Positions 2-20,703 of a DNA stretch of 64,000 nt are shown here, piece after piece. Location: positions 1 through 64,000 of the forward strand of contig JAQWJE010000014.1 of assembly GCA_029248525.1 (NCBI GenBank), given 5' to 3'. The position numbers were made by a program, and so were the translations under genes. The notes beneath the pieces are model-generated. The model saw nothing but the letters and a program-made list of their open reading frames with translations, made no database searches and was not told where the DNA came from. Source of the DNA: Candidatus Binatia bacterium. Its GTDB lineage: Bacteria > Desulfobacterota > Binatia > UBA12015. The stretch's first letter is position 1. The number at the start of each line of letters is the position of its first letter.

Positions 2-676
2 GCCGCCCTCGCCGCAACCGACGAGGAAAAGTGCGAGAAGAAGAAGCTTCTGGCGCTGGGCAAACGCGAACTGTGCCTCCAGAAGGAGCGAGCGAAGGAG
101 GTCCTGGGCAAGACGCCGAACGTGGCCGGGTGCGCGGAGAAGTTCGACAAGGGGATCGCGGCGGCGGAGAAGAAGGCGACCTGCCGCTGGCTGGAGAACG
201 GCGACGGGACGGCCACGGACCTGAACTCGGGGCTTCAGTGGGAGCTCAAGACGGACGACGGCTCGATCCACGACAAGGACGACACGTACGTCTGGGGCGG
301 TCTCCTCGGTGGTGGTCTGTTTAAGCCGGACGGCACAGCGTTCGTGGACTTCCTGGGGACCCTCAACGGGGGCAAGATGATGCCAAGCGCCGTGACGACG
401 ACGGGATGCTTCGCGGAAAAGTGTGACTGGCGGCTTCCGAAGATCGAGGAGTTGCTGGGGCTTCTGAGCCACCGCGCCCCCTGGATCGACGCACCTTGCG
501 AAACTTCGCCGTGCACGACGATTCCGGGCGAGACCGTTTTGTCGTTCTACTGGTCGTCCTCTACCATTGGGGACGACTCTTCCAGCGTGTGGGTCGCGAA
601 CTTCGACCATGGCGGCTTAACCGACCGCGGTAAGTGGGGCGACCTTCATGTTCGTGCCGTCCGCGGCGGCTCGTGA
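2..676 (+). CDS. DUF1566 (Lcl C-terminal domain) protein, 5'-truncated
   Basis: The reading frame is open from base 2, so the N-terminus lies off the left edge; 224 residues are visible. The first 50 or so residues are Lys/Glu/Cys-rich and look like a spacer. The rest matches the DUF1566/Lcl C-terminal fold, known from secreted proteins of Gram-negative bacteria: a Cys-Arg-Trp entry, then DLNSGLQWE, then CDWRLPKIEELLGLL, then YWSSST, then a C-terminal HVRAVRGG. That order (W-E, WRLPT-like, YWSS, RAVRGG) is typical of the family. Paired Cys residues around the domain suggest an exported, disulphide-containing protein. The molecular function of the family is unknown. A GTG at 122 could be read as a start, but continuous coding-like sequence upstream argues for a longer protein. 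Confidence 0.8.
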   Translation, partial: AALAATDEEKCEKKKLLALGKRELCLQKERAKEVLGKTPNVAGCAEKFDKGIAAAEKKATCRWLENGDGTATDLNSGLQWELKTDDGSIHDKDDTYVWGGLLGGGLFKPDGTAFVDFLGTLNGGKMMPSAVTTTGCFAEKCDWRLPKIEELLGLLSHRAPWIDAPCETSPCTTIPGETVLSFYWSSSTIGDDSSSVWVANFDHGGLTDRGKWGDLHVRAVRGGS

Positions 677-923
677 GGTCGATGATTCCGCTACACGCCG
701 CGTTGACCGCTAGAAGTGGCCTGGGCCAAAAAGGACCTTGATGTCGGCTACCGTCCTTCAGCTCGATCCAGGCAGCTTTGCCGCCCGCGCAGATATGGAC
801 GTCCGGCACGCCAGGGCTAGTGGCGCTTTCGATCCGCGTCGCATGGACGCCGCCCAGGCGCCGTTTCAGGGCAGCCCAGAGGTTCGCTTCAGCAGGCATT
901 TTGAGCCCCATTTTGAGCCCCAC
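561..923 (-). pseudogene. VRR-NUC domain nuclease remnant
   Basis: Only about the first 57 residues (about 923 down to 750) look like a protein. They read PAEANLW, then GVPDVH, then WIELKDG, which is the start of the VRR-NUC nuclease fold (acidic helix, G-x-PD, then the E-x-K catalytic strand). This domain is common in phage and mobile-element nucleases. After the ELK motif the frame turns into low-quality sequence and runs into the end of the preceding gene, so the C-terminal half is missing. The N-terminus carries a tandem 12-nt duplication (899-922) giving MGLKMGLKM. A tRNA 3' fragment about 100 bp away supports a decayed integrative element. Domain assignment is by eye. Confidence 0.55.
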
Positions 924-1020
924 GGCAGTGATAAACCGAGCAATGTGGTGAGACTCGCTGGAATTGATAGTTCAATGAAACCGGGCGTAATCTGACTCGA
1001 TGTGACGCCACGCACGCCCT

Positions 1021-1083
1021 TTTAGCGGACTTGAAATCCTCTGGGGCGTAAGCCCCGTGCGGGTTCAAGTCCCGCCCCCGGCA
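1021..1083 (+). pseudogene. 3' fragment of a class II tRNA (Ser-UGA/Leu-like), possible att scar
   Basis: The sequence folds as the 3' two-thirds of a long-variable-arm tRNA. There is an anticodon loop at 1030-1036 (loop bases read TGA in the anticodon position), a 5-bp variable stem GGGGC/GCCCC at 1043-1056, a T-arm GCGGG-TTCAAGT-CCCGC at 1059-1075, an acceptor 3' strand CCCCGGC at 1076-1082 and a discriminator A. No D-arm and no matching 5' acceptor strand are found upstream, and CCA is not encoded. The anticodon stem has one mismatch (C1026 against T1040), as expected if the 5' half was replaced by recombination inside the anticodon arm. Probably not functional; it may mark an integration junction. 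Confidence 0.65.
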
Positions 1084-1236
1084 TTGATTAGGGTCTGGTT
1101 TCCAGGGGTGTTTCAGGGTCCCGGACTTCCATTGGCTCCCAGCCACAGGGTGCTGAGGAAATTGGCTCGTGAAGCCCATTTGGAGGCTTGTTTACATTCC
1201 AAGTACCGCCCGACCGTCCTCTGGACGGAAGTGGCA

Positions 1237-1716
1237 TCAGTCGAGCGCGGGACAAGATTTGGGCTTGATCTCGTTCGGGTTTTGCTCACCCAGATAGATC
1301 CCGATGATCTGCACCTCTTTGTCGCCGACAGCGGAGCCGACGTGGCACCAGTCGATGGCCTCGACATAGGCCTCACCCGCCGAAAAAGATCGCTTGCCTC
1401 GGCTTCCGTAGTCGACCCCCAGCGTTCCCGATATCACGTACGCGAGCAACGGAATGGCGTGCTTGTGAGGTCCGGTCTTCATGCCTGGCTCGATAGTGAT
1501 CTTGAACGTCTGGATCAGAGGCGTACCAGCCGGAAATGAATATGGCTGGCCGAGAACGGTCTTCGATGCCTCCTCTATGGGGATCGGTTCGGCACGGATG
1601 GCCTGATAGGGCTCGGTACCCGATTGGTGATCGATGGCAACGGCTGTGGAAGCGCTCGAAGCGACGATCACCAGGATCGCAAAGCGAATAATGAGGTTGC
1701 GGTCTTTACGAATCAT
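1237..1716 (-). CDS. Exported cupin-domain protein
   Basis: 159 residues starting MIRKDRNLII, with a hydrophobic segment (about residues 8-27) ending near AVA, typical of a Sec signal peptide. The mature part has a single cupin barrel: FKITIEPGMKTGPHKH supplies the first motif with an H-x-H metal pair, AYVISGTLGVDYG follows, and WCHVGSA provides the second motif with a further His. Such small periplasmic cupins bind a metal and may sense or modify small ligands; the substrate is not evident. The start codon overlaps the end of the decayed GNAT gene by 11 nt on the same strand, so the two were once cotranscribed. Confidence 0.8.
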   Translation of the reverse strand: MIRKDRNLIIRFAILVIVASSASTAVAIDHQSGTEPYQAIRAEPIPIEEASKTVLGQPYSFPAGTPLIQTFKITIEPGMKTGPHKHAIPLLAYVISGTLGVDYGSRGKRSFSAGEAYVEAIDWCHVGSAVGDKEVQIIGIYLGEQNPNEIKPKSCPALD

Positions 1717-2060
1717 CTGCTCTCTTTTCCATGTTTCGAGTCCATGCGTCGAGTCGTCGGATTATTTGGACGCGAATGACGAAGCCCTGCTTTGCGTGGG
1801 TGTCGAAGCCGAGCCGTTCGTAGAATTCATGAGCCCCGTCGCGGTGGGTGCCAGACATCACCATATAACAATTCGCGCCCCAACAGCAGTCGAGCATCGC
1901 CCTCAGAAGTGCCGAGCCCAGCCCTTCACACCGACGGTCGGGCGCCGTCCATACGTTTTCAATCACGGAGTACGGGCGGCCGCCTCGGTGAGATTGGGGA
2001 CGACGACGGCGTTATATGTCGACAGGAGCGGTAGCCCATCGAAGGCTCCCGGCGGGATTC
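1706..2060 (-). pseudogene. GNAT acetyltransferase, frameshifted
   Basis: The intact downstream frame (1966-1706) reads SVIENVWTAPDRR, then EGLGSALLRAML, then HEFYERLGF, which is the acetyl-CoA-binding half of a GNAT N-acetyltransferase (R-x-x-G-x-G/A pocket, FYER-GF C-terminal strand). The preceding strand, VVVPNLTEAAAR, with AFDGLP before it, lies in the other frame immediately upstream, so joining the halves needs a 1-nt shift near 1972-1976. In GNAT proteins these pieces are contiguous (NLT...RPYxVIENV). A recognisable N-terminal strand is also lacking. Either a true pseudogene or a sequencing indel; no intact alternative start restores the frame. Confidence 0.65.
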
Positions 2061-2153
2061 CCGGGGCTATGCTGAAATTATTCTACCAAGACATGTGCGG
2101 GCAAGTGATGTGATGGATTTGATTGAATCAATCCTTTTATTTGGGAGCCCTGT

Positions 2154-2594
2154 TTATGCGTCCGGCTGCAGTTGAAGCCCGTTTAGAAATTGCAGCAACA
2201 GTTCATCGCTGCAGGCGCGAAAGTTTTTGCTGCCGGGTTTGCGAAAGAGTCCACTAAATTCACCGCGAGACAGCTTTGCACCACCTTTTTCAAATTTTAT
2301 CAGCATGTCATCTTGCTGAAGGTTGAAAGCAATCCGCAGTTTTTTGAGGACTTCGTTGTTCGAAATATCCCTCTCGTCGAGACTCGGAGGCTCTCCGTCC
2401 TGGCGCGGACCCCGCTTCGAAAGAATCAGGCCTTCGAGTACGCATCGCATTTGCTCATTGCTGCATTCGGCTAGTAACTCAGCTGACGGGCCTGCGGCCA
2501 AGGGTCGATCGCAAAGTTGGAATAGCCCGCATAAATCCTGCTCACTCAGCGTGAGAGCCCGACATATAGTTTGTAGTAACGCGTTGTTCTCCAT
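2154..2594 (-). CDS. DUF1456 (YehS-like) protein
   Basis: 146 residues from the ATG at 2594; an upstream in-frame start at 2627 exists, but the family begins at MENN. The protein has two tandem DUF1456 repeats. The first (residues 1-63) is more divergent. The second reads ISNNEVLKKLRIAFNL, then DDML, then GSKNFRACSDELLLQFLNGL, which is nearly the E. coli YehS consensus. Family members are small cytosolic proteins of unknown function. The gene stands alone, divergent from the GAF gene. The local sequence is more AT-rich than the surroundings, hinting at recent acquisition. Confidence 0.85.
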   Translation of the reverse strand: MENNALLQTICRALTLSEQDLCGLFQLCDRPLAAGPSAELLAECSNEQMRCVLEGLILSKRGPRQDGEPPSLDERDISNNEVLKKLRIAFNLQQDDMLIKFEKGGAKLSRGEFSGLFRKPGSKNFRACSDELLLQFLNGLQLQPDA

Positions 2595-2842
2595 GCTGGG
2601 GAGTAGTCTTAATGGAGTCCGAGACAACTTGACAGTCTCTCCACCTCCGCCAGAGCAGAGGCCCAGTTGCCAGGCACGATCGGAGCAGGTGCGGCTGCGA
2701 CTCTCAGGTGGCCGTGGCCCGGTCTCGGTTATCGCCAGCCCGGAGGAAACTCCGATTTTAGTCGAATCCGCTCATGTCTGCATCCCGACGCTTTGGCCCG
2801 AGCCTTCGAACAGGTAGAGCAGGGAAGCGATCCGGAGGCCCG

Positions 2843-3316
2843 ATGCGTGTCGACTATGCCCAGCTGAACAAGACTATCGTTGCACTGCTTCAACGCGAGA
2901 CCGATGAGGTCGCCATCATGGCGACGTTGGCCTGCGAGGTGCATCATAGCGACGATCGTTTTGATTGGACCGGGTTCTACCGAGTCACTGCGGGGGAGTT
3001 GCTGAAAATCGGTCCCTACCAGGGCGGTCACGGCTGTTTGGTCATCCCCTTCGCCCGGGGCGTCTGTGGCGCGGCAGCCCGGACCGGTCAGGTGCAGTTG
3101 GTGCCCGATGTCGAGGCATTCCCGGGCCATATCGCCTGTGCCGCCTCGACGCGGTCGGAATTGGTGCTGCCGGTCCGCAGCGGGGCGGGGCACCTCGTCG
3201 GCGTCCTGGACATCGACAGCGATCAGCCTGACGCCTTCACACGAGAGGACGCCGACCAATTGGCGGACATCCTCTCAATCAGCTTCAGAAACTCAAAGCC
3301 GGACGGTCCGTTATAG
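2843..3316 (+). CDS. msrC: Free methionine-(R)-sulfoxide reductase (GAF type)
   Basis: 157 residues; the ATG at 2843 follows a GGAGG ribosome site at 2832-2836. The protein is a single GAF domain with the family signature: FDWTGFY, then GPYQG, then GVCGAAARTG, then FPGHIACAA. Cys65, Cys75 and Cys99 show the same spacing (10 and 24 residues) as the three redox Cys of E. coli fRMsr, so the catalytic disulphide chemistry should be intact. It reduces free Met-R-sulfoxide in the cytosol using thioredoxin-type electrons. The gene is monocistronic by its spacing. Confidence 0.85.
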   Translation: MRVDYAQLNKTIVALLQRETDEVAIMATLACEVHHSDDRFDWTGFYRVTAGELLKIGPYQGGHGCLVIPFARGVCGAAARTGQVQLVPDVEAFPGHIACAASTRSELVLPVRSGAGHLVGVLDIDSDQPDAFTREDADQLADILSISFRNSKPDGPL

Positions 3317-3513
3317 GTGACCAAATCGTCCTCCAAATCCGGTTTCGCGTCCATACGAGCCCTTTCCGGAACTCGTTTTCGATCAAATTGCCGCCGCAGT
3401 CGGATGTCCGTCCGAAACCGCTGCAACGGGCGATCTGCCCTCGATCCTCCAGACCCGCCAATCGGAGGGGGCGACAGGTGGCAGTCGGCCTGTCGTTGGT
3501 TATCGATGAGTTG

Positions 3514-5511
3514 ATGCGGATTTTCGCCTTTCTTCTGAGCTTGCTTCTGGCGGCCTGTACCGAAGGTGGTGCCGACAGGAAACCTTCGGGTTTAAGTCGT
3601 CCCTCGCCGGACCAGCCATTTGCTCTGGATCCATCGCGTCTCGATCGCCCGGTACCCCTCTTTCCTGCCAATGACATGGACCGCGATCCGCAGAAACGGG
3701 CGTACTTCGGCGACCTTCATGTCCATACAAAATGGTCGATGGACGCTTTTATCTTTGGCGGTACCGTAACCCCGGACGAGGCCTACCTGTACGCCCAAGG
3801 CGAGGCCCTGGCGCATCCGGCCGGGTTTACCATGCAACTCCGGGAGCCTCTCGATTTCTATGCCGTCACTGATCATGCGCTTTTTCTGGGCTTGAGTGCG
3901 GCAGCTGCCGACCGGGAGCACCCGTTTTCCAGCTATCCGGCAGCGGAGCCGCTACACGACCTGAATCGGGATGGGAATCGGACCCTTTTATCCATTCCGG
4001 GACGGCTGGGCTTGTTCTCCAAATTTGTGCCCGGAGTCCTCGATGGGCTGCGCGACGAGTCGATTCCGCAAGACGACGTAGCGGCCATCAGCAAAAGCGC
4101 CTGGCTGGATATCGTCACGGCCGCAGACGCGCATTATCAGCCTGGTTCGTTCACCACCTTTGTTGCCTATGAATATACTTCCGGCGGAGGTGATGGCGGC
4201 AGTCTGCATCGCAATGTGATCTTTCGCGACTCGGTGGGACTCCCCGCCGAGCCATTCTCCCGTTTTCATTCGCGCGACCCCGAGGGACTGTGGGACTGGC
4301 TGGACGGTCTGCGCGCCGACGGGGTCGAAGCATTGGCGATTCCCCACAACTCCAATGCTTCGGACGGGCAGATGTTCTCGCTGGTCGATTGGGCCGGCGA
4401 TCCCTTCGATCGCGATTATATCGCCAAGCGGATGCGCAACGAGCCGTTATTTGAAATCAGTCAGGTAAAAGGCACCTCCGAGACGCACCCGTCGCTTTCG
4501 GACACCGACGAGTGGGCGTCTTTTGAAATCAAGCCTTTTATCGGTAGCAGTTTCGAGATTAGCGAGCCGAAAGGAAGCTACGTCCGGCAAGCTCTGCGAG
4601 ACGGTTTGGTGATGGCCGATCAAGATTTGGGGAACCCCTACGCGCTGGGCTTCGTTGCGGCCAGCGATTCACATACGGGAGCCACCACGGATAATGAGGC
4701 CGACTTCTATTCCAAGATCGGCCTACTCGACGCGACCCCCGAACTACGGGGCTCGGTACCCTTGCCGTGGTGGCAATCGCTGGCGATCGGCTGGATCCTG
4801 CCCAAGCGCGTGGTCGAGCTCGAGGGGCAAACCTATGCCCGCACGCCGACCACTACTTTCGGGGCGTCCGGACTCGCTGGTGTCTGGGCGGAGGAGAATA
4901 CCCGAGAGGCCCTCTATAGCGCGTTTCGGCGCAAGGAGACCTTTGCGACATCCGGGCCCCGACTGCGAGTCCGGCTCTATGCCGGCTATGGTCTGGGTCC
5001 GGATGTCCTGGAGGATCCGGCGCGATGTGCCACCGAATGTCCTTCCGCTGTACCCATGGGCGGCGAGTTTGAAACGAGGCCCGGAGAAGCCCCGCAATTT
5101 CTGGCATGGGCGGTCCGCGACCCTTTGAGCGCCCCGCTGCAACGATTGCAGATCGTCAAGGGCTGGAGCCATAACGGTATATCGGGAGAGGAAGTCCATG
5201 ATGTCGCCTGTGCTGTGGGCGTCCCCGACCCCGAAACGCACCGGTGTCCACAGGTGGCGGCGCCGGTCGACCTGGGCGATTGTTCCTACACCGAGAGGCC
5301 AGGCGCCGGAGAGCTTCGAGCCCTCTGGTCGGACCCTGACTTCAACGCGGAGGAAAGAGCCTTCTACTATGTTCGGGTTCTCGAGAATCCGACTTGCCGA
5401 TGGTCAACATGGGACGCTCTGCGCGCGGGGCTTCCGCCGCGGTCGGACCTGCCCGTCACCGTTCAGGAGCGGGCCTGGTCTTCCCCTGTCTGGCGATTGC
5501 CTCTGTCCTGA
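3514..5511 (+). CDS. DUF3604 lipoprotein (PHP-like)
   Basis: 665 residues from the ATG at 3514. The open frame extends 126 nt upstream, but the signal sequence starts here: MRIFAFLLSLLLAAC is a lipoprotein signal with the lipobox ending at Cys15. The mature protein carries DUF3604 motifs: AYFGDLHVHTKWSMDAF near the start, FYAVTDHALFLG, IPHNSN, and AASDSHTG, which resemble the metal-binding His/Asp clusters of PHP-type hydrolases. DUF3604 proteins are large, often exported, and their substrate is unknown. Probably outer-membrane or periplasm anchored. It is the first of several lipoprotein genes in this region. Confidence 0.85.
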   Translation: MRIFAFLLSLLLAACTEGGADRKPSGLSRPSPDQPFALDPSRLDRPVPLFPANDMDRDPQKRAYFGDLHVHTKWSMDAFIFGGTVTPDEAYLYAQGEALAHPAGFTMQLREPLDFYAVTDHALFLGLSAAAADREHPFSSYPAAEPLHDLNRDGNRTLLSIPGRLGLFSKFVPGVLDGLRDESIPQDDVAAISKSAWLDIVTAADAHYQPGSFTTFVAYEYTSGGGDGGSLHRNVIFRDSVGLPAEPFSRFHSRDPEGLWDWLDGLRADGVEALAIPHNSNASDGQMFSLVDWAGDPFDRDYIAKRMRNEPLFEISQVKGTSETHPSLSDTDEWASFEIKPFIGSSFEISEPKGSYVRQALRDGLVMADQDLGNPYALGFVAASDSHTGATTDNEADFYSKIGLLDATPELRGSVPLPWWQSLAIGWILPKRVVELEGQTYARTPTTTFGASGLAGVWAEENTREALYSAFRRKETFATSGPRLRVRLYAGYGLGPDVLEDPARCATECPSAVPMGGEFETRPGEAPQFLAWAVRDPLSAPLQRLQIVKGWSHNGISGEEVHDVACAVGVPDPETHRCPQVAAPVDLGDCSYTERPGAGELRALWSDPDFNAEERAFYYVRVLENPTCRWSTWDALRAGLPPRSDLPVTVQERAWSSPVWRLPLS

Positions 5512-13454: not shown

Positions 13455-16400
13455 ATGGTTAAAAAGGAATCGATCGCAAGCAACCTCGACTGCACTTCGG
13501 GGCAACGTAAAACAATCAGCACGGCCTTCTCTGGCTTCCTGCGTCATACCATAGCGGGCGCGGTCGTGGGAGCGACCCTGCTCGCGCAACCGTTGGCCGC
13601 AATGGCGGTCCCGGGGGGCCTCGATACCGCTTTCGGACCGGGACCCTGCCTGCCGGGGTATCCCGGCTTCACATCTGTCACCTTTAACGGACCGGGCGGC
13701 TCCTGTCCGGACGATCAGGTGATGGGTATTTCCGGATCGGGCCGCGCTCTCCTCTGGCAGTCCGCCGTCGGCTCGGCGGAAGAGGCGAACGAGGGTGCAT
13801 CGACCGAGATTGTTGTGGGCGGATCAATCAATCTGGGCTTTGAGAGCGAAACAGGCGAAATCCAGACAGCATTTACCTCGGTAGACCTCAACGGAGACCT
13901 TGTGCCGGAATTTCGGGATGGCGGAGCGGCAACTTCACGCGATGGCAAAATGACTGATATGTACGGTGAGGTCGCGGACCTTCTGGGGCGCGACAATGGT
14001 GCCGGGAAGCGTGACTTTATCGCTCTGGTGGAATCGGGTGGTGGTAGCGGTTTTTCGCTGGCGAAGTTCGGTCAGGACGGCTCGAACAAGGGACGCAGCT
14101 TTCGTTCCTACATCGCGCGTAACGGAGTGGCCGGCATGGCGGATGTCGATGGGAGCGATTTTCTCGTCGTTGCTACTGACCGTGATGCCAGCGGCAAGTC
14201 CGAGGTTCTCGTTCGTCGTTTCGATGCGACCTTTGGGCATGTCGCGCTGGGCGGTGCCACAGAGTACCGGATTGGAAATAGTGCCCTGGCGTCCACCGGG
14301 AAATCCTATAACGCAAGCTCCGTGTTCGTCGATCAGGACTCTGGCAGCCTCTACATCGGTGGATCGGTAAACTATATCGTTGGCCGGATTGGTGTTCTGC
14401 ACATTGACCCTGTCGTGTTCAAGGTAGATTTGGCTACGGGAAAACTGGATGCGACCTTTGGCACCAACGGCATGGCCGCCTTCTCTTTTGGGGGAGGCTA
14501 TAGTACGGTCGCTGCGGTCAATCAGTTGAGCGACGGTACGCTCGTGGTTGGCGGCAACACGCAGGTTCCCGCCATGTCGGGCGGCTTCTTCAACGGCATG
14601 GTGGTGGCCATGCTCGACAGTGCCTCCGGCTCAATGGTGAACGTCCGTCAGATCACACTTTCCAATGGCAAGATCGCTGCGATTGCGGTCGACAGTGTCG
14701 ACCGTGTCGTGGTCGCAGGTAGCGCGGATGGCCCGACCGCCCAACAGAGCCCGGCTGTGGCGGTTGCACGGCTGATGCCTGACCTCTCCATGGATCCTCT
14801 GTTCGGCGTTGGCGGCATCACGGTAGCGCCGGCTTCCGACGATGAGAGCCGCGCCCTCGACGTGATTGTCGATCCCGTGATGGGTGATATCTACGTTGCT
14901 GCCGAAGCAGAGTTTCCGGGCTTCATGGGCACGCAATATCCGCAATTGACCCTTGGACGTTTCTTCGGTGGTCCGAATTGCTTCGATGGTCGGATCGATC
15001 CCAGCGAAGCGGATACAGACGGTGATGGCATCGAGGATCGTTGCGATAACTGCCTTTCGACTCCCAACCCGGATCAGTCCGATCTGGATGGTGATGGGCT
15101 CGGTGATGCCTGTGACAACTGCGATGACGTTCCTAACCTCGACCAGTTGGACAGGGACGGCGACGGCGCCGGTGATGTCTGCGACAACTGCGTCGACACT
15201 CCGAACCTGGACCAATCAGATGTTGATAGTGACGGTTTTGGAGATGTCTGCGATAACTGCATGGACGTTTGCAACCCAGACCAGGCAGACACCGATGGTG
15301 ACTGTTCGATCCACGCGCAGGGGCCCAATCAATGCGGCGACGTCTGTGATGTATGCCCGAACACCGATGTGGAAAGCACGATGTGCAACAGCATTCGCAG
15401 CGGCAGCAACCCAGAACGTGCGAACGTGGACTGCTGCCTTTCGGATCCCGATTCGGCACCTGTCGTAGAGGGTATCTCCGTTGGCCCTGATGGCGAGTCT
15501 TGCACGCTCTCGATGGTTGACGAGTATATCGAATCTCAAAACGATATGGTCGAGCTCAAGTTGCCTCACGGCGTCGTCACCGCCGACACCAGCTTCTCGA
15601 TCGAGGAACAAACTCGCAGCAAGCTGGAGCGGGTAGCCACCGGCGACTACGGACACTACTGGGGGGGGCTCGGCGAAAACTCCGGCGCGACCCACGTGGT
15701 GAACGTGGAATTCAACCCGGATGCGGGATCTTCGGCGATGACATTCGCCAAGAACGTCGTGATCAAGCTGAAGTGGGAAAACAAGACGGGTACAGACAAG
15801 GTGGTTGGTACGAACAAGAGCGAGAAGAAGTTCGCGCCTCGCTGGATCGATGCCGATCCCGGTACCAGCTCGACCTCCCCGGCGACGAACAATCTCATTG
15901 CGGGCATGTGCGAAGACCAGCAGTGTGGCTCCGTCGACGCTGATGGTTTTCCGCTGGACTGGGGAACCGACAAAGACGGAAATCCTAACGTCCGGTTCGA
16001 TGATGCAAGTCTGCGGGCGTGTTGCGATATGGCCAGGAACTTCTACGCCTTCGAGACCTCCCACTTCAGCAGCTACGCGGGAATGACGAAGAATTGCTCG
16101 GAAGCGGTGCGACCGTCGATGAAAATCAAGAACCTGCACCGTTCAGGTGCCCAGCAGAAGCTCGATCTGCGATTCGACATGGTGGTCGACCCAGAGGAGG
16201 AATTGACCTGGAACCCGGCAGAGACGGGCATCCGAGTTCGACTTCAGGCCGACGGCAATGCAGTCCCTGTGGACCTGGAAGTTCCCGGAGGGCTTTACAG
16301 CCGCGAAACCGGCGAAGGTTGGAAGGCGATCAGGGGTGGCTTCAAATGGGCGAGCAAGCAGGGACCCGGCGGTCTCTCCAAGGTTATCCTGAAGGATCGC

Positions 16401-16589
16401 GGTCAGGGTCAGATTCAGGTCAAGGTGCAGGGCAAGGCGATGCTCCTTGCCACTTCCATCGGGAATGCCCTCAAGGCAAGTGTCGACCTGACGCCCAAAT
16501 CCTTCTCTCCCTTCTGCGCGGAAGCCGGAGAAGGTGATTCCTGGAGTTGTGTCATGAATCGAGGGGGTACGACCATGACCTGCCGCTAA
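13455..16589 (+). CDS. Large secreted protein with delta-60-like repeats and thrombospondin type-3 repeats
   Basis: 1044 residues from the ATG at 13455 (AGGA at 13442-13445; ATGs at 13446 and 13449 are alternatives). A long N-terminal region precedes a hydrophobic HTIAGAVVGATLLAQPLAAMA, an extended signal peptide. Residues about 55-510 contain propeller-like stretches: GGLDTAFG, GKLDATFGTNG and LSMDPLFGVGG resemble delta-60/DUF5122 repeats. About 15000-15350 encodes four to five thrombospondin type-3 Ca-binding repeats (DxDGDGxGDxCDNC). The C-terminal 350 residues are Cys-rich and end in TMTCR. Likely an extracellular or surface protein stabilised by Ca and disulphides. A terminator follows directly. 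The C-terminal part has a broken paralogue immediately downstream. Confidence 0.85.
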   Translation: MVKKESIASNLDCTSGQRKTISTAFSGFLRHTIAGAVVGATLLAQPLAAMAVPGGLDTAFGPGPCLPGYPGFTSVTFNGPGGSCPDDQVMGISGSGRALLWQSAVGSAEEANEGASTEIVVGGSINLGFESETGEIQTAFTSVDLNGDLVPEFRDGGAATSRDGKMTDMYGEVADLLGRDNGAGKRDFIALVESGGGSGFSLAKFGQDGSNKGRSFRSYIARNGVAGMADVDGSDFLVVATDRDASGKSEVLVRRFDATFGHVALGGATEYRIGNSALASTGKSYNASSVFVDQDSGSLYIGGSVNYIVGRIGVLHIDPVVFKVDLATGKLDATFGTNGMAAFSFGGGYSTVAAVNQLSDGTLVVGGNTQVPAMSGGFFNGMVVAMLDSASGSMVNVRQITLSNGKIAAIAVDSVDRVVVAGSADGPTAQQSPAVAVARLMPDLSMDPLFGVGGITVAPASDDESRALDVIVDPVMGDIYVAAEAEFPGFMGTQYPQLTLGRFFGGPNCFDGRIDPSEADTDGDGIEDRCDNCLSTPNPDQSDLDGDGLGDACDNCDDVPNLDQLDRDGDGAGDVCDNCVDTPNLDQSDVDSDGFGDVCDNCMDVCNPDQADTDGDCSIHAQGPNQCGDVCDVCPNTDVESTMCNSIRSGSNPERANVDCCLSDPDSAPVVEGISVGPDGESCTLSMVDEYIESQNDMVELKLPHGVVTADTSFSIEEQTRSKLERVATGDYGHYWGGLGENSGATHVVNVEFNPDAGSSAMTFAKNVVIKLKWENKTGTDKVVGTNKSEKKFAPRWIDADPGTSSTSPATNNLIAGMCEDQQCGSVDADGFPLDWGTDKDGNPNVRFDDASLRACCDMARNFYAFETSHFSSYAGMTKNCSEAVRPSMKIKNLHRSGAQQKLDLRFDMVVDPEEELTWNPAETGIRVRLQADGNAVPVDLEVPGGLYSRETGEGWKAIRGGFKWASKQGPGGLSKVILKDRGQGQIQVKVQGKAMLLATSIGNALKASVDLTPKSFSPFCAEAGEGDSWSCVMNRGGTTMTCR

Positions 16590-16648
16590 AGCAAAAGGGA
16601 GGGGCAGTCACCGGCGCTGCTTCCTCCAGCATCACCATCCGTCGGAGG

Positions 16649-16687
16649 GGTCCCCGCGAGAGCAATCTGGCGGGGATCCTTTTTTTT
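16649..16687 (+). terminator. Rho-independent terminator
   Basis: Nine-base-pair stem formed by 16649-16657 and 16670-16678 (core CCCCGC/GCGGGG), 12-nt loop, followed by eight T at 16680-16687. It lies 60 bp beyond the stop of the thrombospondin-repeat protein and is the strongest intrinsic terminator in the window. Confidence 0.85.
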
Positions 16688-16800
16688 GGACGGCGCATCG
16701 AAGCCGTACCGCGGGCCACGCACGGACACGATGTACCAGGGCCCGCGGTGACGCGGGACCGCCAGGCCTCGCGGTTCAGCCTGTCGGTCGGGAACCGCTT

Positions 16801-17695
16801 CCAGGGTGCGCAATTCGGGCACGCATACCCAACGAAAACGACGCGCATAAGGACGGCTGGCTGCGGAAAGTGGAGGGAGACCAGTACCAAATCAAGGAAG
16901 CGAATATCGCGCCTTATCATGTCGATGCGACGCTTCCCGACCATCGGCTGGCGGATAAATGCAGTCTGGTTCCTGCACCTCGTTTGATGCCGACGGATTC
17001 CCGGACGATTGGGGTGGAAACACCCGTTGCGACGAAGCCTCAACAGGAACTGTGGATGAGTCGACGTTGGGAGCCTGCTGTGGGGCAACCGAGAACAAAT
17101 ATTGTTTCGAGGTCGTCCACTTCAGTACCTATGCGATTCTTGATCCGAACTGCGGGCTGACAATCTGGACCGCAGCAAGCTCAAAGTCCTGAAATTGGAA
17201 AAGGAGGTCGGCCAGCAGAAAATCGTCTTCTCGACGGAATTCACAGTTCCGATCGATGATACCAGCGGCGAGCCCGATCCGGCCATCGACCCGCTGAACA
17301 ATGGATTCCGGATCGCGTTGGTTGATGAAGACGAGGTTGCCGCGCCCACTCTCTGGTCCGGTAGCGTGGAAGGCGGAGCCTATGACAAGGCCACCAAGAC
17401 GGGGTGGAAGGTGAACAAGGCCGGCACGACCTGGACCTTCAAGGGGCGGGACCGCGAGGACGGGATTATCAAGGTGGTTGTAAAGACCCTCTACCGCAAG
17501 GAGCCCGGTCTTGTGAAGGTGAAGGTAGTGGCGAAAAATGCCGCCGTGGCGGGGGTGGACGGGCCCGTGCAGGGGGAGATCAGCCTCCATCCGGCGGGCT
17601 TCTGTGATCGATGTGCGCAGACGGCCTTCAGTGTGCCGCCAGCTGCGGAATTCTGCGTGGCGAACGGGGCTGGCACGGGTTTGATCTGTCGCTAA
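16801..17695 (+). pseudogene. Frameshifted paralogue of the C-terminal part of the upstream secreted protein
   Basis: Three pieces in three frames line up with the end of the 13455-16589 protein. Frame 1 (to about 16960) is short and weakly similar. Frame 3 (16959-17192) reads CTSFDADGFPDDWGG, then LGACCGATENKYCFEVVHFSTYA, against VDADGFPLDWG and LRACCDMARNFYAFETSHFSSYA upstream. Frame 2 (about 17160-17695) reads QQKIVFSTEFTVPIDD, then GWKVNKAGTTWTFKGRD, and ends FCVANGAGTGLICR, against the GWKAIRGGFKWASK and TMTCR region. At least two indels are needed, near 16960 and 17158. No signal peptide or repeat region is present, so this is a truncated duplicate. Confidence 0.75.
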
Positions 17696-17838
17696 GCCAT
17701 GGATCCGGTGCGCCAGACCATAGACTCGTTTCGCCTGCTCGAGTGCGGGAGTGCCGAAGTCTCGGCTCAGCACGTTGAAGTTGATCAATCGCGTTTTTAT
17801 TGACGGATCAATGGCCAAAAGGCAAAACAGGATTTCTT

Positions 17839-20703
17839 ATGTCGACTTATTCCTATCTGCGAAATCTCCTTATCGTTATGCTGGTATGCTCTGCGGTGCC
17901 GAGCTCGGCCCAGATTTGCGCCGGTGATCCCTGCGTTGTCAGCGGGGAGCATCGTGTTGCGGCAGGCGAGATTCTGGATCTGGGCGATTCGGTGACCTTG
18001 AGGATCGCTTCCGATGCCAGAATTATTCTCGAATTCGGCGGCAGCGAACCGGCCACGATTCGAGCAGGGAGCATTCTGGTGGACGCGGGTGCTCGTTTTT
18101 TGATGGAACCCTCAACGATAGTTCAGGCCCGCAGGCAGTGGGTGTCGGACTTGCATCTTTCCGCAACCAACGCGATCCAGATCGGCGCGCCGTCCGGGCC
18201 ACCGGTAATGGGCCTGCGGGGGCCCTCGCTGAAGCTAACGGCAGGCGGGGATTTGAGCGTTCTGGGGCCTTTTGAATTGCGGGGAGTGGAGACGGATGCA
18301 GGAAGTCTCGATGCGGTTGCCGGTGGGAATCTTCAGATCATTGGCTCGCTCGATCTCTCGGCCGATGGGAAACCCCAGGGGCTTGAGTTTGCCCCAGAAA
18401 GCGGTGGTCTGACTCTGGATGCTGGCGGCTTCGTGTCCGTACCCGGCGATCTCCATCTCGGCAGCGTTGATGGGTCCGCTGGAACCCTCGACGTCGAGGC
18501 CGGGGGCAATATCCAGATTTCAGGCGCAATTTCGATTGCAGGCGGGAAGAAAGACGAGGGCGATGGGGGTGCTATTTTCCTGCATTCACTCGGTGGAGAC
18601 ATCCGCCTTGCCGGCAGCATTACGGGATCGCCGGGTAGCAGCGCCGAGGACTGCGGAAGTGCGGTCGAAATCGAGCTCAACGCCTCTCCTTTCGCGAACA
18701 TCGATTTATGCAGTCGCAGTCGGGCAAAGGGGCCAGGCAACATTTACCTGGACGGAGTCCTGAACGTACCGGGGGATGGAAGTGCGGAATGTGAAGGCGC
18801 CTCGGTATCGGCCTGCGCGGGGGGCCGGATCGAGCAGGGACCGCTGGGCGAATTGCACGCGAGTTCCAAGCGTGGCGTGGGCGGAAGTCTGACGATGCAG
18901 GCGGCGGGTGGGATCCTGCTCGGAGCGGTGGATCTTTCCTCGGCCAATGGCACCGGCGGCTTTGTCGATACCATCGCGACTTCCGGTGAGATTCGGTTTG
19001 CCGGAGATCTGGACACCAGTGGGAAGCGGTCGCAATTCGATTTTGGTGGTATCATCTACGCGACTGCTTGCCGCATAGCGATAGAACCCGAGAGCGAATT
19101 ACTGGCAGGTGGCAGCACGAACGGTTGTTTTCCGTCAGATCCCGACTGCCCAAAAATCTTCGCCGTAGCCAACCTTGCTGCGGGAGATCAACTTCGCGTC
19201 GGGGGCCGGGTAGCAGCAGGCCATGCGGTTCGGCTGGCGACGAGCGGTCTTGCTCCCGAAATCACCGGATCGGTTTCCCCAACTCCGGAGATATCCGTGC
19301 TGCCGGATTTACCGACCTGCGGCGATCTGCCTGGGGAGTGCGGCGACGGAACCCTCGATCCTGAAGAGATCTGTGACGATGGCAATACATTGGACTGCGA
19401 CGGTTGCCGTGGGGATTGCCGCGCGACGGATGCAGTCTGTGGCGATTCGATTCTCGAATGCGACGAACAGTGCGACGATGGAAATGAGGAAGACGGCGAC
19501 GGCTGCTCGGCGCAATGCCGACTGCCTACGGGGGAGGGCTTGCGCATACCTGGACCGATCGCGCGAAGCGGCTGTCTCGCCGCCTGGAACCTCCGGGGCA
19601 ATTCTCTAAGCGTGGTCGGGTCGGGTGTGGCCTCTCGACGCCAATTCTGCACCGACGGGGATCCGGGTTGTGATCAGGATGGTATAAGCAATGGCCAATG
19701 CGAGGTCGCGGCCGCGGTCTGCTTTGGCTCGGCGGCCCCGGCCTTTCCTCAGTGTGCGGAGGCGCAAGTGGCTCGCGCGACTCTCAAGAGCCCCCGATTC
19801 CCCAAGCGCTCCGGTCTGATTGATGCCAATGCGATCACGATCAGCGATGCTTTCAAGGACACCGGAGTGACGGTCTTTGCGGGCACTCGCGAGCTCCATT
19901 CTGGAACTTCGATCGCGTCAGGCACGTGTACGAGCGAATTTTCCTTGGAGATTGCAGCCGGCCGCCGCGCCCGTTTCGACATCGGGGCACGGACCGGACC
20001 TGGCGATCGTCGCAAGATGGTGCGCAATCCACTCGATATAGAATGCGTCGTCAACACAGCTAGTTGCGGCAACGGACAGATCGAAACCGGCGAATCCTGC
20101 GATGACGGGAACACAGCGAACTGCGACGGATGCTCCTCTCGCTGTGTCCAGGAGGCCTGCGGGAACGGAATTCTCGAGTGTACCGAAGAATGTGAATCGG
20201 GAACGGGCGATGACGGCCGATGCTCCGATACCTGCCTACTTGAAGCTCCAGCAGTGCGTATTCCAGGAGGTCTTCGCCGAACCGATTGTCGTTTGAGTTG
20301 GGCGCTTGAGCATGGGGCCGAGGCGATTGCCATGGACCGCTCCGGGATTCCCTCGCGAGTGCAGGAATGCACGGACGGTGATCCGGAATGCGATTTCGAT
20401 GCGGCCTCAGGCGTCTGTGGCTTCCGTGTCTGGGCATGTCTGGGTGAGGCGGACGAGCGGATTTCATGCGCGGCCGAGGAAATTGACGGGGTTCGCGCCC
20501 TGGGGTCCTGGAGACAGCCGGCAACTCTGAAGATCGCCGGCGTGCTCGCCGGGCTGGAGTTCCCCCTCGAGCCGGGTGGAGAGTGCACGCGAATGGCAAC
20601 GATCCCTGTTCCTGCCGGTGGCAGGCCTGCATTGGTTGGTGCGCGTGCCCAAGCTGGTAGTGGCGGTGATCGGGACCGTATACGACTCAGCTGCCGTCCC
20701 TAG
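17839..20703 (+). CDS. Large secreted protein with DUF4215 Cys-rich repeats and a duplicated module
   Basis: 954 residues from the ATG at 17839. The signal peptide is LLIVMLVCSAVPSSAQ. Residues about 20-490 are Gly-rich beta-helix-like sequence with repeated VxAGGNIQIxG elements, as in filamentous adhesins. Then come two copies of a larger unit: a pair of DUF4215 (myxococcal Cys-rich) repeats (CGDGTLDPEEICDDGN and CGDSILECDEQCDDGN; later CGNGQIETGESCDDGN and CGNGILECTEEC), each followed by about 150 residues with RIPG, CTDGDPxCD and paired Cys. The protein ends LSCRP, close to the CR endings of the two upstream relatives. Probably a surface or released structural protein. Confidence 0.85.
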   Translation: MSTYSYLRNLLIVMLVCSAVPSSAQICAGDPCVVSGEHRVAAGEILDLGDSVTLRIASDARIILEFGGSEPATIRAGSILVDAGARFLMEPSTIVQARRQWVSDLHLSATNAIQIGAPSGPPVMGLRGPSLKLTAGGDLSVLGPFELRGVETDAGSLDAVAGGNLQIIGSLDLSADGKPQGLEFAPESGGLTLDAGGFVSVPGDLHLGSVDGSAGTLDVEAGGNIQISGAISIAGGKKDEGDGGAIFLHSLGGDIRLAGSITGSPGSSAEDCGSAVEIELNASPFANIDLCSRSRAKGPGNIYLDGVLNVPGDGSAECEGASVSACAGGRIEQGPLGELHASSKRGVGGSLTMQAAGGILLGAVDLSSANGTGGFVDTIATSGEIRFAGDLDTSGKRSQFDFGGIIYATACRIAIEPESELLAGGSTNGCFPSDPDCPKIFAVANLAAGDQLRVGGRVAAGHAVRLATSGLAPEITGSVSPTPEISVLPDLPTCGDLPGECGDGTLDPEEICDDGNTLDCDGCRGDCRATDAVCGDSILECDEQCDDGNEEDGDGCSAQCRLPTGEGLRIPGPIARSGCLAAWNLRGNSLSVVGSGVASRRQFCTDGDPGCDQDGISNGQCEVAAAVCFGSAAPAFPQCAEAQVARATLKSPRFPKRSGLIDANAITISDAFKDTGVTVFAGTRELHSGTSIASGTCTSEFSLEIAAGRRARFDIGARTGPGDRRKMVRNPLDIECVVNTASCGNGQIETGESCDDGNTANCDGCSSRCVQEACGNGILECTEECESGTGDDGRCSDTCLLEAPAVRIPGGLRRTDCRLSWALEHGAEAIAMDRSGIPSRVQECTDGDPECDFDAASGVCGFRVWACLGEADERISCAAEEIDGVRALGSWRQPATLKIAGVLAGLEFPLEPGGECTRMATIPVPAGGRPALVGARAQAGSGGDRDRIRLSCRP

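Follow-up and report, generated by a model that had tools for sequence, protein, structure and literature searches.

Two adjacent coding sequences of the window (the stretch of 64,000 nucleotides analysed here) end in copies of one C-terminal domain of about 165 residues, hereafter CTD, which on sequence comparison is an undescribed domain common to many secreted proteins of a little-known lineage. What the data establish is the family itself, with its distribution, its confinement to C-termini and its characteristic end. We propose, with a probability of about 0.5, that CTD is a C-terminal sorting or surface-retention domain, analogous to the CTDs of type IX secretion (T9SS) and forming a separate family. 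This reading was preferred because CTD appears to be a folded domain, terminally confined and with a near-fixed end, carried by many unrelated secreted passengers. The features of the window referred to below are:

13455..16589, + strand: P1, with matches below curated cut-offs to delta_60_rpt (E 1.9e-8), TSP_3 (E 4e-4) and DUF5122 (E 0.028)
16095..16586, + strand: CTD of P1, from the conserved first Cys to the C-R at the stop codon
16548..16586, + strand: probable terminal C-x10-C-R hairpin of P1, from the second-last Cys to the last residue
16837..17695, + strand: remnant of a second CTD gene, in three pieces and three frames (about 16837-16974, 16974-17156 and 17159-17692)
17156..17692, + strand: CTD of the remnant, an open frame ending GLICR
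17839..20703, + strand: P3, a DUF4215/myxo_disulf_rpt protein with two A5 copies, outside the CTD family
19477..20013, + strand: A5 domain, internal copy in P3
20197..20700, + strand: A5 domain, terminal copy in P3, ending LSCRP

The open frame of P1 is intact; its N-terminus looks signal-like by eye, and delta-60/DUF5122 propeller-like repeats are followed in it by TSP3-like Asp-rich repeats and then by CTD. Its C-terminus (...SCVMNRGGTTMTCR) and that of the middle, GLICR frame (17144-17692; ...FCVANGAGTGLICR) both show the pattern C-x10-C-R-stop, and the final ~165 residues of the two products are homologous (27% identity). The sequence-only reading had described three large secreted proteins with the termini TMTCR, GLICR and LSCRP, sharing a Cys-Arg ending preceded by another Cys at a similar distance, two of them with the same final domain. 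The last point was borne out, P1 and the middle product being the two that share CTD, and the common ending and the Cys spacing hold for this pair as well; neither extends to the third product, P3. Nor does the description as a large secreted protein apply to the middle product, which by alignment is a 5'-truncated, twice frame-shifted remnant and not an intact protein. Positions 16837-17692 of the window aligned to residues 873-1173 of L020 and to about 1157-1440 of L017, a paralog whose frame of 1440 codons lies on a different contig, with identities of at most 89%; the GLICR frame is the last piece of this alignment, and any counterpart of the N-terminal part of the paralog is missing. An intact middle gene was discarded since the paralog match splits into three frames and lacks that part. 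Because the closest copies of the remnant sit on other contigs, it is not a tandem duplicate of P1, and tandem duplication was rejected as the source of the shared ending. The remnant was also sought in G461, another assembly of this species with a completeness of 63%, where the only match (72% identity over 384 bases) lay on a contig bearing another CTD copy; as this gave no confirmation, the frameshifts rest on one assembly. In P1, a second module with a pattern of about DGFP.DW ... CC ... E..HFS.Y (read by eye from alignments) lies directly before CTD, at 15900-16095, and is common to several own-genome copies (L016-L020).

P3 is an intact frame containing three stretches that match DUF4215 or myxo_disulf_rpt. 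The profiles of the P1-type domain (A1, equivalent to CTD) and of the P3-type domain (A5) did not align (hhalign probability 0.1), and the Cys preceding LSCRP in P3 lies 35 residues upstream, whereas ten residues separate the last two Cys in P1 and in the remnant; for these reasons only two of the three endings in the window belong together. P3 was excluded as a member of the CTD family by this comparison, by the Cys spacing and by its internal A5 copies, and its LSCRP ending is a coincidence in an unrelated domain. The segment that had been said to recur within the third product is its own A5 and not the domain of P1. A Pfam match to A5 was absent in all six members scanned.

Profile searches of the genome and its relatives, the check attached to the sequence-only reading, revealed CTD copies far beyond neighbouring duplicates. 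With P1 as query, 15 matches were obtained in its own 4.27 Mb genome at E up to 1. A 12-row profile at E up to 0.1 gave 14 matches in this genome: 12 strong copies spread over nine contigs, P1 and the remnant included, a weaker copy (L040, E 1.7e-15) and a scrap of 28 residues (L041). Among relatives, CTD was present in 39 of 58 genomes (profile search, E up to 0.001, own genome counted), a set that takes in the 12 other genomes of the same family, and the most matches in one genome were 21 (G019). Within the class, a 42-row profile at E up to 1e-8 detected the domain in 54 of 145 genomes. Of 395 genomes sampled across the phylum, 8 carried it, all from the same class, as which 16 of the 395 are listed; no match was obtained in the other 379 (eight candidates scored per genome, 367 matchless genomes being unlisted).

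Terminal placement was assessed by a position-blind search, in which all 106 CTD copies whose frame reaches a stop were C-terminal, that is, no more than 20 residues from the stop. These copies were drawn from the own-genome loci, 29 one-per-genome loci, 60 places picked among the stronger matches listed and two loci of the MAG "Deltaproteobacteria bacterium isolate UBA12015"; they contain two remnants (that of the window and L041, as a 40-residue ORF) and near-identical pairs, one frame cut by the edge of its stretch was left out, and an alternative de-duplication gives 105 copies. By exact count, the tail beyond the last Cys was of 1 residue in 92 copies, 2 in 10, 3 in 1 and 4 in 3. Directly behind this Cys, 92 of 106 copies carry a basic residue, Lys in 54 and Arg in 38, and the remaining 14 a different residue. 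An exact C[KR] end was found in 82 of the 106; among 494 other ORFs on either strand of these loci, one ends so. The pattern was retained in less redundant sets: below 60% identity a one-residue tail was present in 72 of 82 copies, Lys/Arg in 72 (K+R background in the domain 10.7%) and both in 64, and below 40% identity the respective figures were 30, 32 and 26 of 36.

The A5 domain, from the same genomes and the same kind of protein and also with a Cys in its last strand, served as control. Of 61 A5 copies, 35 were terminal and 26 internal, with tails of 1-8 residues. This control is biased, because the P3 counterparts were fetched for having two A5 copies, and 19 of the 26 internal copies sit in two-copy proteins, mostly P3 and these counterparts. 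Once the 19 two-copy proteins were removed, 16 of 23 copies were terminal and 7 internal, with a one-residue tail in 1 of the 16 (Fisher test against CTD, uncorrected for relatedness: 2.6e-6 for position and 2e-10 for tail). The contrast between CTD and A5 in terminal placement thus stands after removal of the two-copy proteins.

The modules ahead of CTD were very diverse, including propellers, beta-helices and PETase-like, GH9, trypsin and phosphoesterase domains. Scanning of 74 of the 98 eligible N-terminal parts, many of them cut at about 500 residues, gave matches to PF00200 in 36 (named Disintegrin, and by eye looking like Cys-rich repeats), TSP_3 in 13, DUF4215 in 10, DUF5122 in 8, beta-helix in 7, Metallophos and CCP_MauG in 4 each, RCC1-type, Recep_L and Chlorophyllase in 2 each, and PETase, GH9, trypsin and Spherulin4 in one each, besides others. 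Signal-peptide-like starts were scored with a simple home-made heuristic in 39 of 47 complete CTD frames (at least 300 residues) versus 54 of 189 control frames, the control ORFs coming from both strands and being partly not genes.

All four conserved Cys were present in 99 of the 106 copies and the last two in every copy, with ten residues between these two in 85. More distant members were collected from 20 remote places, 18 of which gave a local match at E up to 0.001 (L207 and L219 had none), and 17 of the 18 were terminal. The exception, L218 (ORF 169-4434, a frame of 1422 residues), has a CTD-like stretch followed by a Thr/Pro-rich run and then by several hundred residues. A remote subfamily of six (L206, L208, L211, L214, L215 and L217, from three genomes and with two near-identical pairs among them) is C-terminal, lacks the last two Cys, ends in tails such as FKARSD or FKDKGN, and keeps the Cys before the domain plus the second Cys; one further copy, L209, has no Cys in the domain region. 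Since the remote subfamily is without both of the last two Cys together, the most likely partner of the last Cys is the one 11 positions before it, and CTD would hold two disulfides, 1-2 and 3-4. Such pairing would leave no free Cys for an anchor, which argues against a lipidated or cleaved terminal residue; the last Cys is probably disulfide-bonded.

AlphaFold2, run on four sequences, gave two models with mean pLDDT values of 62.7 and 63.3. Each is rich in beta strands and closes with a strand pair; the last 35 residues of the second model scored below 50. At E up to 0.001, Foldseek returned nothing for the CTD models. The matches from VIA-align were generic, Ig-like or other, with Z up to 6.6, and the absence of a T9SS CTD among them is uninformative. 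Because the models are weak and the matches generic, "Ig-like beta-sandwich" is used here only as a working description of the predicted fold. The unit of sharing is the whole beta-rich domain of ~165 residues and not a short CR motif.

CTD had no meaningful counterpart in Pfam, in NCBIfam or among PDB sequences, the few matches listed being from single members at E 0.012 or worse. T9SS CTD profiles (type A or B) were not among the Pfam/NCBIfam matches of 12 and then of 42 domain sequences, and the best match to a bacterial Ig-like (Big) profile came from one of the 42 members (Big_1, E 0.043). Four chosen machinery families were surveyed in the 58 genomes, and none of them tracked the distribution of CTD. 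SprA_N (PF14349) was found in 0 of 58, but the control genomes were silent too. MYXO-CTERM (TIGR03901) occurred in six relatives, all CTD-positive, and exosortase (PF09721) in 19 genomes (18 of 39 CTD-positive and 1 of 19 CTD-negative); neither was found in the own genome. T2SSG (PF08334) was present in 56 of 58, comprising 39 of 39 positive and 17 of 19 negative genomes, with at least two hits in 32 of the 39 versus 3 of the 19. In the own genome there are two T2SSG hits, each of a different subtype (G000:C46:81874-82191 and G000:C8:239149-239463). A T2SS subtype dedicated to CTD was considered and dropped, since both subtypes occur in negative genomes (tree of 40 picked T2SSG sequences) and G019, CTD-positive with its 21 copies, has a single T2SSG hit. 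T9SS, MYXO-CTERM and exosortase likewise received no support as CTD machinery in the marker searches. No dedicated neighbour gene stood out in 70 CTD loci, most of only about 5 kb, the widest neighbour cluster (7 of 70 loci) being an ORF judged by eye to resemble a short-chain dehydrogenase. These marker and neighbour searches brought up no CTD-specific sorting enzyme or exporter. Literature searches on C-terminal sorting systems did not find CTD in print, and no paper was found joining any two of C-terminal sorting domain, thrombospondin type 3 and DUF4215.

Compared with known systems, CTD proteins resemble T9SS substrates of type A (TIGR04183/Por_Secre_tail) and type B (TIGR04131) in combining a Sec signal peptide with a domain at the C-terminus of many different passengers. 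For CTDs of type A, Ig-like beta-sandwiches are described, with the signal placed in the last 22 residues (PMC4804311, PMC12618676). The domain reported here differs from type IX CTDs in its lack of a T9SS profile match, its two probable disulfides and its near-fixed C-[KR] end. MYXO-CTERM tags, reported from the C-termini of dozens of surface proteins per genome, contain an invariant Cys, and the T2SS is the exporter predicted for these proteins (PMC11980579). CTD is likewise C-terminal with an invariant Cys; the MYXO-CTERM tag, a Cys motif followed by a transmembrane helix and an Arg-rich end, is cleaved, whereas in CTD, apparently a folded domain, no helix follows the Cys and the tail is of only 1-4 residues. 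The PEP-CTERM domain, C-terminally confined on many proteins and with fewer than 10 residues after it in 87% of cases (PMC1569441), was recognised by the same type of evidence; CTD differs from this exosortase-linked tag in having no PEP motif, helix or basic cluster. T2SS substrates are also folded proteins exported across the outer membrane. According to a review they share no common features and their recognition is unresolved (PMC10128026), whereas here one domain is common to many candidate substrates.

Confinement of a domain to the end of many proteins is the pattern that marks PEP-CTERM and T9SS CTDs as sorting elements (PMC1569441, PMC4804311, PMC12618676). Under a sorting or surface-retention role, the shared ending would be the last strand of CTD, probably a beta-sandwich closed by a terminal disulfide hairpin, C-x10-C-[KR]-COOH. 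Passengers would leave the cytoplasm via Sec signal peptides, as the home-made heuristic suggests in silico, and in the oxidising periplasm the first and second and the third and fourth Cys would be joined, as co-loss implies. The folded CTD with its exposed basic C-terminus could then act as a common address label for unrelated passengers, carrying them across the outer membrane and/or retaining them at the cell surface. The exporter would most likely be the T2SS, a marker of which, although not specific, is present in each of the 39 CTD-positive genomes examined. Tentatively, and with some doubt, CTD, including its free C-[KR] carboxyl end, might be the signal recognised by a lineage-specific outer-membrane sorting route (a T2SS variant or another translocon), in which case a T9SS-like division of labour would have arisen independently. 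The earlier idea of an undescribed sorting or anchoring signal linked to TSP3 and DUF4215 proteins gains from these data for the P1-type domain (all copies terminal, C-[KR] ends, unrelated passengers, signal-like starts, no Pfam/NCBIfam match). It fails for the third protein, and for a short CR motif, in place of which stands the whole domain; a lipidated or cleaved terminal Cys is argued against by the co-loss. Against a sorting role are the 14 of 106 copies without Lys/Arg after the last Cys, the internal L218, the remote subfamily without the last Cys pair, the Cys-free L209, the weak structural models with their generic fold matches, and the fact that no partner gene stood out in the CTD loci and none of the markers tested follows CTD; moreover, terminal placement and wide sharing would be compatible with a binding domain too.

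The main rival is indeed a binding domain, which we regard as quite possible: CTD would be an extracellular Ig-like module for a surface polysaccharide, the envelope, matrix or substrate, with no export role, and its placement would reflect domain order, as in many carbohydrate-binding modules. Enzymes and adhesin-like repeats as passengers, models resembling generic Ig-like sandwiches and the lack of any partner machinery that stood out all suit such a module. Binding modules, however, usually also occur N-terminally, internally or in tandem, whereas none of the 106 strong CTD copies was internal, and a near-fixed last residue is hard to reconcile with ligand binding elsewhere on the domain. 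Next comes a structural cap, which seems unlikely. Here CTD would do no more than close and stabilise stalks such as TSP3 or Cys-rich repeats, having spread by gene-end duplication together with the ancestral stop, and the basic end would be a packing effect of the final disulfide strand. TSP3-like DGDG..GDACDPC residues are found directly before CTD in roughly 40-70% of copies, column by column, and the terminal hairpin resembles a disulfide clamp; CTD is also found behind enzymes, however, and the stop codon should drift across a class, as in the A5 control, unless the end itself is selected. Covalent anchoring through the terminal Cys, as a lipid or cleavage site in the manner of MYXO-CTERM, would suit the invariance of this Cys and the basic residue mostly following it, but is highly improbable given a tail too short for a transmembrane helix or Arg cluster, the joint loss of the last two Cys expected of disulfide partners, and a genome in which MYXO-CTERM was not found.

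Known sorting tags of Gram-negative bacteria are few, and cargo recognition by the T2SS is among the questions that the review cited above (PMC10128026) describes as unresolved. If the sorting or surface-retention role is correct, one folded tag with a near-fixed last residue, on up to about 20 different secreted proteins per genome, would offer a testable handle on surface sorting, and the secretome of an obscure lineage could be read from sequence, PETase-like and GH9 proteins included.

Across the 58 relatives A5 and CTD coincide exactly, both being found in the same 39 and missing from the same 19, an identity of distribution that common ancestry of the positive families may explain. A counterpart of P3 with two A5 domains (940-1065 codons) was present in all 17 genomes to which the A5 search pointed (L170-L186); the genes neighbouring P3 in the window recurred only partly around these counterparts. 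In four fetched loci of relatives (L111, L125, L128 and L171) a CTD gene adjoins an A5 gene, as P1 and P3 do in the window.
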